From Streptantibioticus cattleyicolor NRRL 8057 = DSM 46488 (GTDB lineage: Bacteria > Actinomycetota > Actinomycetes > Streptomycetales > Streptomycetaceae), in assembly GCF_000240165.1 (NCBI RefSeq), contig NC_017586.1, positions 5,345,228 through 5,409,227 on the forward strand: 64,000 nt of DNA, in the 5' to 3' direction. Shown here piece by piece: positions 24,983-35,244 of this stretch. Position 1 is the stretch's first letter; each line of letters starts with the position of its first letter. The position numbers and the translations under genes were made by a program. The notes beneath the pieces are model-generated. The model saw nothing but the letters and a program-made list of their open reading frames with translations. It ran no database searches and was not told the DNA's origin.

Positions 24983-24986
<4 letters not shown>
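24081..24986 (-). CDS. ABC-2-type transporter permease
   Basis: A 301-residue membrane protein with six predicted helices after a polar N-terminus of about 40 residues (for example VTAAVMVLLPVVVWAAFAIG and AVLFVSSGFLLTVPVALFFG). The segment EAGWSSLRYLLAAPVPRGRLLASK is typical of ABC-2 permeases. The GTG start overlaps the stop of the hydrolase-ATPase fusion gene (GTGA), so the two are coupled and probably form one exporter. The exported substrate is unknown. Confidence 0.85.
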
Positions 24987-27895
<2,909 letters not shown>

Positions 27896-28156
27896 GGGGC
27901 CGTCCTCGGTTCGTCGGGTCCGGAGTGTCCTGAGGCGGGCACCTCTTCGCACACCAGTGCGCCTGTCGACGATCACGCCAACGTTCCCGGTCCGGCCCCC
28001 GTTCCCGGACGCGCCCACAGGACGCCGTTTTCACCCGGACGAGGGGGTCGGGCATCCGATGTTGACGCGCCTCCCGGCCGCACGGCCACCTCCCCCGCGC
28101 CACCTCGCCTGTACCGTCGTCACCACCACCCGGCCCGCCTACCGACCTGGAACCCC

Positions 28157-30326: not shown

Positions 30327-30409
30327 AAAGCCCCCGGGGCCGCCCACGCCGCACCCCGTCCTGTCCGGCTGTCCGACCCAGCCGATACGCTCGGGGGGTG
30401 GGCAATGAC

Positions 30410-30964
30410 ATGGCCGGACCGGAGAACGCGGACCCGCACGACCCCGAGCCGGGGGACGCGGCACACGACGGGCCGGAGGGAACGGGCGACGGCGCGCCCC
30501 GACCCGCCCCCGCCGCCCCGGTGTTCGAACGCGGCACCGACGGTCCCAAGGTCATCATGGCCGGTGTGGACGGCACCGAGTCCTCCTGGCGGGCCGCCGC
30601 CTACGCCGCCGGACTCGCCCGTCGCCAGGGCTCGCTGCTGGTCATGGTGTACATCCAGCCGCTCGCCCTGGCCGGCTCGCCGGGGCTGACGCTCTCCATG
30701 GCCGAGACCACCTCGGAGATCGCCGACGAGATCGCGGCCCAGGCCAGGGCGGCGGCCGAACGGCTCAGCTCGGTCCACCGGGTGCGCTGGGAGTTCCGCA
30801 CCTTCCCCGGCGACCCCTTCACCGGCCTGGTCAAGGCCGCCGACGACCTGCGCGCCGACGCCGTCGTGGTCGGCGCCTCCGAGCAAGCCGGCCACCGCTT
30901 CATCGGCTCGCTCGCGGTCCGGCTGGTCAAGACGGCCCGCTGGCCGGTCACGGTGGTCCCGTAA
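30410..30964 (+). CDS. Universal stress protein, single UspA domain
   Basis: About 184 residues: an acidic, Pro-rich N-terminal extension of roughly 45 residues, then one UspA domain. The core begins VIMAGVDGTESSWRAAAYAA. The ATP-type Gly motif is altered: VVVGASEQAGHRFIGSLAVR has G-x2-(10)-G spacing with Ser/Ala changes, and ends WPVTVVP. ATG 30410 is preferred since the GGGGGTGG run then has an 8-nt spacer; GTG 30398 is an alternative. Such proteins act in dormancy or stress adaptation. Confidence 0.83.
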   Translation: MAGPENADPHDPEPGDAAHDGPEGTGDGAPRPAPAAPVFERGTDGPKVIMAGVDGTESSWRAAAYAAGLARRQGSLLVMVYIQPLALAGSPGLTLSMAETTSEIADEIAAQARAAAERLSSVHRVRWEFRTFPGDPFTGLVKAADDLRADAVVVGASEQAGHRFIGSLAVRLVKTARWPVTVVP

Positions 30965-32044: not shown

Positions 32045-32761
32045 TCAGGCGTACTTGGGCTCGACCCGGGCGACGACGGCGTGCGGACGCCCCGGGTGCG
32101 GCGCGGTGAACGCCTCGTACAGCGCCTCGTGGTCCCGGCCGTCCACGGTCACCGCGGACCAGCCCTCGACCTCGAACCGGGAGGCGAGCCCGCCCCGCCA
32201 GCCGTAGGTCGCCGAGGCGTTGTCGACCGCCACCACGTGCAGCCCCTCCAGCCCGACCGCGCCGGCGAAGGCGATCGCCTCGTGGTTGCTGCCCTCGTCC
32301 ATCTCGGCGTCGCCGACCAGCACGAACGTACGCGCGGCCCGCCGCTGGGCCTTGAGCCCGAGCGCGGTGCCGACCGCGATCGGCAGCCCGTGCCCGAGCG
32401 ACCCGGAGGCGATCTCCACCCCCGGCACCAGCAACCGGTCCGGGTGGTGGCCGAGCGGCGAGTCGAACGTGCCGAACCCCGGCAGCCACTCGCGCGGCAC
32501 GAACCCCTTGGCGGCGAGCACGGCGTAGTACGCCATCGGGCCGTGCCCCTTCGACAGCAGGAACCGGTCCCGGTCGGGCGCGTCCACCGTCTCCGGCGAG
32601 ACGCGCAACACCCGGTCGTAGAGCACCCACAGCACGTCCAGCGTGGACGTGGCGGCCGGCCCGTGCTTCTCGTCACCGGTCATCAGCGACATCAAAGCGG
32701 GCAGCTCGGCGTAGCCGGCGGACGGGTTACGGGGGAGGGCGAACGACGATGTCGAAGTCAT
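32045..32761 (-). CDS. Transketolase N-terminal (thiamine diphosphate/Mg) subunit
   Basis: A 238-residue half-transketolase. The thiamine diphosphate motif is visible as VGDAEMDEGSNHEAIAFAG (GDG-type start, GDA here), followed by the metal ligand in VVAVDNASATYG. FLLSKGHGPMAYYAVLAAKG and VEIASGSLGHGLPIAVGTAL are family landmarks. Split transketolases are common in actinobacteria, often for a special pentose or amino-sugar route rather than core metabolism. The start lies 14 bp from a SoxR-type dyad shared with the divergent soxR gene. Confidence 0.88.
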   Translation of the reverse strand: MTSTSSFALPRNPSAGYAELPALMSLMTGDEKHGPAATSTLDVLWVLYDRVLRVSPETVDAPDRDRFLLSKGHGPMAYYAVLAAKGFVPREWLPGFGTFDSPLGHHPDRLLVPGVEIASGSLGHGLPIAVGTALGLKAQRRAARTFVLVGDAEMDEGSNHEAIAFAGAVGLEGLHVVAVDNASATYGWRGGLASRFEVEGWSAVTVDGRDHEALYEAFTAPHPGRPHAVVARVEPKYA

Positions 32762-32775
32762 GCGCCGATCTTGCA

Positions 32776-32795
32776 ACTTCAAGTTCCCTTGAAGT
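32776..32795. promoter_or_regulatory. SoxR box between soxR and transketolase genes
   Basis: The perfect dyad ACTTCAAG-TTCC-CTTGAAGT lies 14 bp upstream of the transketolase N-half start and 20 bp upstream of the soxR start. It has the same geometry as the E. coli soxS site (CCTCAAG-TTAA-CTTGAGG), with inner CAAG/CTTG and a 4-bp centre. Control of both genes by SoxR is strongly suggested. Confidence 0.8.
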
Positions 32796-32815
32796 CAAGG
32801 GCTATCGTGGGCCCC

Positions 32816-33301
32816 ATGCCGAAGCCACATCCGCAGGACCGCCTCACCATCGGCGAGCTCGCCGCCCGCAGCGGCCTGGCCACCTCGGCGCTGCGCTACT
32901 ACGAGGAACTCGGCCTGCTCCAGGCCGAACGCACCGCCGGCGGCCAGCGCCGCTACCCGCGGGCCACGCTGCGCCGCCTGGCCTTCATCCGCGCGGCCCA
33001 GCAGGTCGGGCTCTCCCTCGACGAGACCCGCGAAGCCCTCGCCCGCCTCCCGGAGAACCGCACCCCCAACGCCACCGAGTGGGCCGCCGTCGCCCGCTCC
33101 TGGCAGCGCCGCATCGACGCCCGCATCGCCGAACTGGAAGCGCTCCGGGGCCGCCTCCTCGGCTGCGTCGGCTGCGGCTGCCTCTCCCTGACCCGATGCG
33201 CCATCTACAACCCCGCCGACCAAGCCGCCACCCGCGGCCCCGGCCCCCACTTCCTCCTCGGCGACCCCCCGGACCCGTCCGATCACCCTACGCGACGGTA
33301 G
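32816..33301 (+). CDS. soxR: SoxR, [2Fe-2S] redox-sensing MerR-family regulator
   Basis: A 161-residue MerR-type activator. The N-terminal winged helix reads LTIGELAARSGLATSALRYY and YEELGLLQAERTAGGQRRYP. The sensor loop CVGCGCLSLTRC has the four cysteines in SoxR spacing (C-x2-C-x-C-x5-C) that hold the iron-sulfur cluster. In Streptomyces SoxR responds to redox-active metabolites such as actinorhodin rather than acting through SoxS. It faces a split transketolase over a near-canonical SoxR box. Start ATG 32816 has no strong ribosome site. Confidence 0.93.
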   Translation: MPKPHPQDRLTIGELAARSGLATSALRYYEELGLLQAERTAGGQRRYPRATLRRLAFIRAAQQVGLSLDETREALARLPENRTPNATEWAAVARSWQRRIDARIAELEALRGRLLGCVGCGCLSLTRCAIYNPADQAATRGPGPHFLLGDPPDPSDHPTRR

Positions 33302-33408: not shown

Positions 33409-33482
<74 letters not shown>

Positions 33483-33490
33483 CGGTGCTG

Positions 33491-34390: not shown

Positions 34391-35244
34391 CTGCTGGTCA
34401 CGGGTGAGATGATCTTGCTGTGTCTGGTGTGATCACGGCGTCTGAGCCCTCCTGGATAGCCCCGTTCACTGGGCTGAGCCCGCGCCAGTTCGGCAAGCTG
34501 ATCACCGCGCTCCGGCGTGAGGGTGTGGACCCGGTGCGCAAGGGTCGGCCATGGAGCCTGCCGCTGGAGGACCGCGTGCTCCTGATCGCCGCGTACTGGC
34601 GGACGAACCTGACCCTGCGTCAACTGGCCCCGCTGTTCGGGGTGTCCAAGTCGGCGGCCGACCGCATCATCGACCACCTCGGGCCCGCGCTCGCGCTCCA
34701 GCAGCGCAAGCGGTTCCGCAAGGACACCGTGCTCATCGTGGACGGCACCCTCGTTCCCACCCGTGACCACACCATCGCCGAGCAGTCCAAGAACTACCGG
34801 TACTCCACCAACCACCAGGTCGTCATCGACGCCGACACCCGGCTCGTCGTCGCGGTCGGCCGACCAGTCGCAGGCAACCGCAACGACTGCAAGGCGTGGG
34901 AGCTGTCCGGCGCGAAAGACGCCGTCGGCAAGACCACGGTCATCGCAGATGGCGGCTACCGGGGCACCGGCCTGGTCATCCCGCACCGCCGCGAGAAGGG
35001 CCAGACCGAACTCCCGGAATGGAAGGAGGAGCACAACGCCTCCCACCGCAAAGTCCGCGCCCGTGTAGAGCACGTCTTCGCCCGGATGAAGGGCTGGAAG
35101 ATCCTTCGCGACTGCCGGCTGAAGGGCGACGGCGTCCAGCACGCCATGCTCGGCATCGCCCGCCTGCACAACCTCGTCCTTGCCGGGTGACGCAGAAACC
35201 AGCAGGCCACCAGACCCGTCAGAGATCATTTACGGGACAGCCCT
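34376..35244 (+). mobile_element. Complete IS5-family insertion sequence
   Basis: An element of about 869 bp carries one intact transposase gene. Its ends are perfect inverted repeats (AGGGCTGTCCCGTAA inward), flanked by TA on both sides. Perfect ends and an uninterrupted reading frame suggest a recent insertion. The right end abuts an Rhs remnant that does not continue left of the element, so insertion was accompanied by deletion, or the Rhs gene was already truncated. Confidence 0.88.
34420..35190 (+). CDS. IS5-family DDE transposase
   Basis: A 256-residue transposase. An N-terminal helix-turn-helix region (LTLRQLAPLFGVSKSAADRI) is followed by a DDE catalytic core: first Asp in VLIVDGTLVP, second Asp in VIADGGYRGTG, and Glu in RARVEHVFARMKGWKIL, in the IS5/DDE_4 arrangement. 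The frame is intact and starts with GTG 44 bp inside the left repeat. Confidence 0.92.
   Translation: MSGVITASEPSWIAPFTGLSPRQFGKLITALRREGVDPVRKGRPWSLPLEDRVLLIAAYWRTNLTLRQLAPLFGVSKSAADRIIDHLGPALALQQRKRFRKDTVLIVDGTLVPTRDHTIAEQSKNYRYSTNHQVVIDADTRLVVAVGRPVAGNRNDCKAWELSGAKDAVGKTTVIADGGYRGTGLVIPHRREKGQTELPEWKEEHNASHRKVRARVEHVFARMKGWKILRDCRLKGDGVQHAMLGIARLHNLVLAG

Follow-up and report, generated by a model that had tools for sequence, protein, structure and literature searches.

In Escherichia coli, soxR and its target soxS are divergently transcribed, with an 18-base-pair (bp) dyad (CCTCAAGTTAACTTGAGG) between them. The locus described here shares that arrangement. It lies in a 64,000-nucleotide (nt) stretch of Streptantibioticus cattleyicolor NRRL 8057 (NC_017586.1, positions 5,345,228 to 5,409,227 of the forward strand; hereafter the window), in which a soxR-like gene faces tktN, the first of two genes for a split transketolase-like enzyme, across a dyad of the same geometry, as a preliminary description of the sequence had proposed. 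The E. coli target is a second regulator, SoxS, with a classical box and a SoxR of the Val/His type, whereas here the target is an enzyme, and both the box and the corresponding residue are shifted. We call the facing regulator SoxR2, a name coined in this analysis, and from sequence comparison we consider it likely that the locus is a two-gene redox switch in which SoxR2, on the dyad in the tktN promoter spacer, would turn on tktN and tktC.

The SoxR regulon of Streptomyces coelicolor comprises six genes, for oxidoreductases, a monooxygenase, an epimerase/dehydratase and a transporter (PMC4146615), and shares its SoxR protein family and promoter layout with the tktN locus; it differs in including no transketolase and in that soxR is not autoregulated. 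The same source describes the SoxR regulons of antibiotic producers as transporters and tailoring redox enzymes. It also names, in the footnote to its Table 4, a SoxR site for Streptomyces avermitilis SAV_1623, a putative transketolase. Like tktN, SAV_1623 is thus described as a putative transketolase whose promoter contains a SoxR-binding sequence; the footnote mentions neither a soxR paralogue nor an operator shift, and says nothing of a leaderless start or of conservation elsewhere. The combination of a SoxR site with a transketolase gene is thereby already in print; among the matches listed in the open-licence literature on the link, the paralogue or the operator, we found no account besides that footnote, and none of SoxR2.

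The split transketolase of Carboxydothermus hydrogenoformans (6yaj/6yak; PMC7661550) is, like TktN-TktC, a two-chain enzyme. It keeps the motifs GEDGASH and RLGR, where TktC has GGRTH and RLSE.

Results

A perfect 20-bp dyad, ACTTCAAG-TTCC-CTTGAAGT, occupies positions 32776..32795 with no mismatch, between soxR2 and the N-terminal transketolase half, where the preliminary description had placed it. We predict it to be a SoxR-type operator, without strand, of a shifted type, in which positions 2 and 17 of the 18-bp core are T and A respectively. It is the sole match in the window when up to three mismatches are allowed (shuffled sequences gave a mean of 0.01), and its core, CTTCAAG-N4-CTTGAAG, has a single exact match in the 8.1-Mb genome, at this place. 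Only the exact match is counted, because with two mismatches the pattern and a backward control tie at five places each.

The dyad sits within the 19-bp spacer of a minus-strand promoter for tktN, whose -35 hexamer TTGACT (32793..32798) overlaps the box and whose -10 hexamer CAAGAT (32768..32773) is followed after 6 nt by the ATG at 32761. We assign the start of tktN to this ATG, in correction of the TTG at 32782 given in the list of open reading frames (ORFs), which falls within the box. Long spacers are a trait of MerR-family promoters. With E. coli as the yardstick, the placing of a dyad inside a 19-bp spacer of the target promoter is that of the SoxR family. Since the -10 hexamer ends 6 nt before the ATG, the tktN mRNA is probably leaderless, with its start expected at the ATG itself. 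On the plus strand, a possible -10 hexamer for soxR2, TATCGT (32803..32808), was picked out by eye only, with the soxR2 ATG 7 nt further on.

Conservation was surveyed with TktN. The sample consists of 80 named loci, the best 80 of 540 relatives; of a family-wide search, with a match at 1e-40 in 182 of 297 genomes, from which 29 loci, 40 fetched regions (G101 twice) and 16 genomes were examined; and of a class-wide search, with a match in 46 of 296 genomes and the loci of f4, f37 and f45 left out. The scores listed in the class search drop from 5.0e-81 to 2.3e-46 after the TktN subfamily, which is therefore set apart from other split transketolases. With identical TktN sequences merged, the final set holds 170 rows, one locus being double (L274/L293), and hence 169 distinct loci. 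Left out of the counts are four distant split transketolases (L244, L245, L248 and L249), a second TktN copy (L246) and L247, which is the same gene as L243. The tallies run over related genomes, which are not independent, and carry no phylogenetic correction. L246 itself (G053, C105:8477-9145) lies within a much longer open frame and has no SoxR box; it may be a fused or differently controlled relative.

In 168 of the 169 distinct loci, in four actinomycete families, tktN is preceded by the same promoter, in which the box, the 19-bp spacer and the distance to the ATG are all kept; three other families (f17, f19 and f46) contribute 16 loci, whose TktN proteins are 63-72% identical. No score as high was reached by any of 8500 shuffled regions or of 168 tktC upstream regions. 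In a set of 110 loci, in which some genomes are present twice (as a named and a second record), the -35 hexamer is TTGACC or TTGACT in 108 and TTGATC in two, and all 110 have the promoter, with the -10 hexamer 6 nt from the ATG in 42 and 7 nt in 68. The adjacent soxR is divergent in 67 of 67 rows. We reject a chance origin for the box on the window shuffles, the single match in the genome and the shuffled regions, and a strain-specific promoter on the homologous loci that the family- and class-wide searches returned with the same promoter. The SoxR-transketolase link predicted from it spans four actinomycete families.

The facing gene, soxR2 (32816..33301, plus strand), encodes a protein of 161 residues (P0001) that matches the SoxR equivalog TIGR01950 with 183.3 bits (cut-off 116.9) and has intact [2Fe-2S] cysteines (CVGCGCLSLTRC). 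The four-cysteine motif CxxCxCx5C is present in P0001 and in 71 of 71 linked SoxR2 rows, one locus being counted twice. Score, cysteines and promoter layout agree with membership of the SoxR family; activation of SoxR2 by oxidation we infer.

A search of its own genome with P0001 gave 18 matches, itself included, and two of the proteins are of SoxR grade: SoxR2 and one encoded at C2:1932436-1932858, 54% identical, whose gene has a classical box (CCTCAAGGAAACTTGAGG) just upstream. All 67 tktN-facing SoxRs fall in one clade, with support of 98/97, in a tree of 114 SoxRs (few columns, midpoint root, the long branch L174 left out). This separate clade and the second SoxR at C2:1932436 lead us to reject the alternative that the facing gene is simply the ordinary soxR of the species. 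The marks of the ordinary Streptomyces SoxR are its placement in the tree and a CCTCAAG box; P0001 differs in both, with its own clade and a shifted box. SoxR2 is the sole SoxR at 1e-25 in 23 of the 36 genomes with a linked or displaced soxR2 that were searched for all SoxRs, and two SoxRs are found in the genome of the window and in that of L046.

Besides the 67 tktN-facing rows, the clade holds seven others (from G041, G045, G053, G061, G001 and G004, and L154). In G041, G045, G053 and G061 a displaced soxR2 lies 1.6 to 7.2 kb from tktN, and a shifted-type box stands just upstream of all four genes, one of them with a mismatch. In G001 and G004 the gene that the clade member faces encodes a short-chain dehydrogenase and is preceded by a SoxR-like box, seen by eye. 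This pair (L155 of G001, 2007-2771, with the box CTTGACCTCAAGTCAACTTTAAGTTGCA; L156 of G004, 1991-2767) forms a sister group of SoxR2, and neither genome has a tktN match at 1e-40. In the record L062, named Saccharothrix sp. ST-888, SoxR2 and TktN group among Kitasatospora, and the record is perhaps misnamed.

The type of box follows the regulator. A box was classed as shifted when position 2 of the core is T or position 17 is A, and a locus as unlinked if no SoxR lies in the fetched flank, the length of which varies; for 58 unlinked loci the whole genome was searched for SoxR. Counted over distinct loci, 62 of the 70 linked boxes are shifted and eight unshifted (L116, L189, L192, L194, L200, L240, L266 and L274), as against six shifted and 92 unshifted among the 98 unlinked. 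Many shifted boxes are altered in a single half-site, and CTTGAAG-N4-CTTCAAG is the form in one group, made up mostly of Kitasatospora. The comparison of these loci demonstrates an association of box type with regulator, as it does the promoter layout, its conservation and the SoxR2 clade.

The association extends to a single residue, the one just before the SALxxYE recognition helix (the pre-helix residue). In 50 unlinked rows with a single SoxR (47 distinct SoxRs), every one of the 45 unshifted boxes goes with Val at this residue, and every one of the five shifted boxes with Thr or Ala; the six unlinked loci with a shifted box were picked for their boxes before their SoxRs were seen. In the 71 linked rows the residue is never Val, and the box is shifted with Thr in 33 of 33, with Ala in 19 of 20 and with Ser in the one case. 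Outside this count stand eight unlinked genomes with two SoxRs, seven of which combine an unshifted box with at least one Val SoxR; L088, unlinked and with one SoxR of the Val and one of the Pro type, has a half-shifted box. An Arg/His difference in the recognition helix (SALRYYE versus SALHFYE) also tracks the box, and ranks below the pre-helix residue because L090 has Arg in the helix together with Val before it and an unshifted box. A C-Val/T-Ala pairing is tabulated for metal-sensing MerR proteins (Table 2 of PMC5045206); equated through the helix, with the site numbering not matched, the residue concerned may be the same as the pre-helix residue of SoxR2.

Among SoxR2 genomes, 22 were selected because their tktN box is of the CTTCAAG type; all 22 have the exact core at tktN, and the only other exact core among them, in G061, precedes the displaced soxR2; a core with one mismatch precedes soxR2 in G045. 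Eight genomes without SoxR2 were also scanned: six have no core, the one in G248 carries a mismatch, and G153 has one exact core, about 2.5 kb from its own Thr-type SoxR (L165). Possibly G153 holds another private SoxR with its own target. Around position 1501 of L369 (G153), the exact CTTCAAG-type box stands before a small gene with no Pfam match and a transporter gene, as judged by eye.

In a quick tree of TktN, L045 (S. ruber), unlinked and unshifted, falls within a linked and mostly shifted clade, and L046 (S. monomycini), linked and shifted, groups next to L084, which is unlinked and shifted, inside an otherwise unlinked and unshifted clade. These placements suggest more than one change. 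Elsewhere in the S. cattleyicolor genome, a classical box with one mismatch precedes a gene similar to zinc-type alcohol dehydrogenases and quinone reductases (C2:2603167; L007, 1501-2543). This gene is perhaps a target of the ordinary SoxR, a weak candidate because the backward control gives more matches (34) than the pattern (15).

The reading of the target as a split transketolase facing soxR holds at the level of domains. On the minus strand, opposite to the SoxR equivalog, tktN (P0003; 32045..32761) encodes an N-terminal, thiamine diphosphate (ThDP)-binding half of 238 residues that matches Transketolase_N (6.5e-25), and tktC (P0002; 31043..31942), downstream on the same strand, a C-terminal half of 299 residues that matches Transket_pyr (1.3e-26); Transketolase_C reaches 22.3 bits on P0002, below its cut-off of 25.9. 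The best scores against the NCBIfam transketolase equivalogs are 139.8 and 83.1 bits for a cut-off of 488, as half-length chains would score. In PDB searches the closest entry to TktN is the N chain of the Carboxydothermus enzyme (2.2e-36), and TktC finds DXS first, followed by the C chain of the same split enzyme (7.2e-20). The AlphaFold model of TktC has a mean predicted local distance difference test score (pLDDT) of 83, falling below 50 at residues 76-80 and 104-119, around the active-site loop; Foldseek matches it to DXS and to 6yaj, the latter with a TM-score of 0.85, so that the fold is present in the model.

PMC7661550 lists H66, H100 and H473 among the donor-site residues; their counterparts, placed by motif, are kept as the histidines of KHG, KGHG and THQ. 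At the acceptor site, the alignment indicates that the Asp and Arg corresponding by motif to E. coli D469 and R520 are not kept in TktC, GGRTH and RLSE standing for GEDGxTH and RLGR/LTRQ. Gly takes the place of the Asp, and both glycines are invariant in 25 aligned members. The housekeeping transketolase of the same genome (L022) retains HDSIGLGEDGPTHQ and LTRQN. Because, in the alignment, the places of D469 and R520 are changed and the housekeeping enzyme keeps them, we think that the acceptor of TktNC differs from sugar phosphates.

The window's next gene beyond tktC, usp (30389-30964), runs on the strand opposite to tktC, and in the 20 largest downstream gene clusters of the 80 named loci, from crude gene calls, the recurring genes are mostly on the opposite strand. 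On these grounds a larger operon is not supported, and the transcription unit looks like tktN and tktC only. On the far side of soxR2, a tRNA-Pro(GGG) gene (33409..33483, plus strand) is flanking context and not part of the switch. In the 60 of the 80 named loci that were covered, it lies upstream of tktN in 47 of 50 without soxR2 and beyond soxR2 in five of 10 with it. A DDE transposase gene (34420-35190) follows it in the window, and at 24983-28018 an ABC transporter ATPase domain and an X-Pro dipeptidyl-peptidase-like hydrolase share a single ORF.

Discussion

We infer that a SoxR2 dimer carrying [2Fe-2S] would bind the dyad in the tktN promoter, within a spacer that at 19 bp is over-long. 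Redox-active compounds would oxidise the cluster, the DNA would be untwisted, and RNA polymerase would then start a leaderless tktN-tktC mRNA. The dyad at 32776-32795 probably controls soxR2 as well. The product would be a ThDP ketol transferase of two subunits, its donor site resembling that of transketolases and its acceptor site altered. In most of the Streptomyces examined soxR2 is missing, and there the ordinary SoxR may have taken over the promoter through a classical box.

The preliminary description had considered a transketolase under SoxR. The promoter kept at 168 of 169 loci and the boxes at all four displaced soxR2 genes support a regulator of the SoxR type; what changes is the identity of that regulator, a paralogue with a shifted operator in place of the ordinary SoxR. 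The SoxR-transketolase link is well supported by the genomes compared and is wider than was first thought, with a private SoxR, which has a box of its own, as the regulator.

Several observations weigh against this account. The linked locus L241 is without a box, its tktN match beginning only at residue 48, and the second TktN copy in G053, about 70% identical and outside the counts, has none. Several unlinked loci carry half-sites of the form CCTCAAC-N4-GTTGAGG, possibly read by another MerR-family protein. The box rule is broken by eight of the 70 linked and six of the 98 unlinked distinct loci. The residue rule is looser in linked rows, where the box is shifted in seven of 12 with Pro and two of five with His, and the five unlinked genomes with shifted boxes represent about three lineages. 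One-mismatch cores in G027, G045, G068 and G144 are at the level of chance (the backward control gave nine in 30 genomes).

Similar dyads are used by other MerR-family proteins, the genome holds the 18 matches to P0001, itself among them, and unlinked loci have the promoter without soxR2. It might then be supposed that another MerR-family protein, or the ordinary SoxR, reads the dyad and that the facing soxR2 is incidental. We regard this as very unlikely, since all 67 adjacent regulators are SoxR2, the box recurs at the four displaced soxR2 genes, and its type tracks linkage to SoxR2 and, in unlinked genomes, the pre-helix residue.

The preliminary description had tied the locus to sugar-phosphate flow and perhaps the supply of NADPH (reduced nicotinamide adenine dinucleotide phosphate), and an extra pentose-phosphate transketolase raised by SoxR would agree with the transketolase-type domains, the ThDP site and the retained donor-site histidines; however, Gly stands for the Asp of GEDGPTH and the Arg of LTRQN is gone, whereas the housekeeping enzyme keeps both motifs, and no further gene is seen in the unit. 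This meaning is weakly supported, the weakest part of the earlier reading, and in our judgement unlikely. Transketolase is sensitive to superoxide, and E. coli has stand-ins of such a kind in fumarase C and aconitase A. A spare enzyme covering for an inactivated housekeeping transketolase would suit SoxR control, and the genome does encode a separate housekeeping enzyme, but the acceptor-site residues of TktC differ; among the literature matches listed on transketolase and superoxide there was nothing on the stand-in idea, to which we give little credence. A detoxifying or tailoring ketol transferase, which would place a C2 unit on a reactive or aromatic aldehyde arising around redox-active metabolites, is possible, and we put it forward tentatively. 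The changed positions are, by motif, D469 and R520, where mutations of the E. coli enzyme improve the use of aromatic aldehydes (PMC7661550), and such an activity would be in line with other SoxR targets in Streptomyces, which include tailoring enzymes and pumps (PMC4146615). Yet PMC7661550 also states that the Carboxydothermus split enzyme takes bulky aldehydes without these substitutions.

Taken further, SoxR2 and TktNC might be an old, self-contained actinomycete module with a Thr/Ala-CTTCAAG code, in which the ketol transferase would disarm aldehydes from redox-active metabolites, and from which most Streptomyces would have lost SoxR2, the global SoxR capturing the promoter by a change of operator. 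As a whole we hold this to be rather doubtful.

For SoxR biology, the widely kept target predicted here is a carbon-carbon ligating ThDP enzyme, beyond the transporters and redox tailoring enzymes. The residue-operator rule would offer a direct and cheap prediction of the site that a SoxR chooses, and the disappearance of SoxR2 along with an altered box would clearly exemplify the replacement of one regulator by another. A SoxR2 with its own altered site beside a two-part enzyme points to a little-studied response to redox-active chemicals, and the true acceptor of TktNC could disclose the meaning of the SoxR signal in these bacteria.
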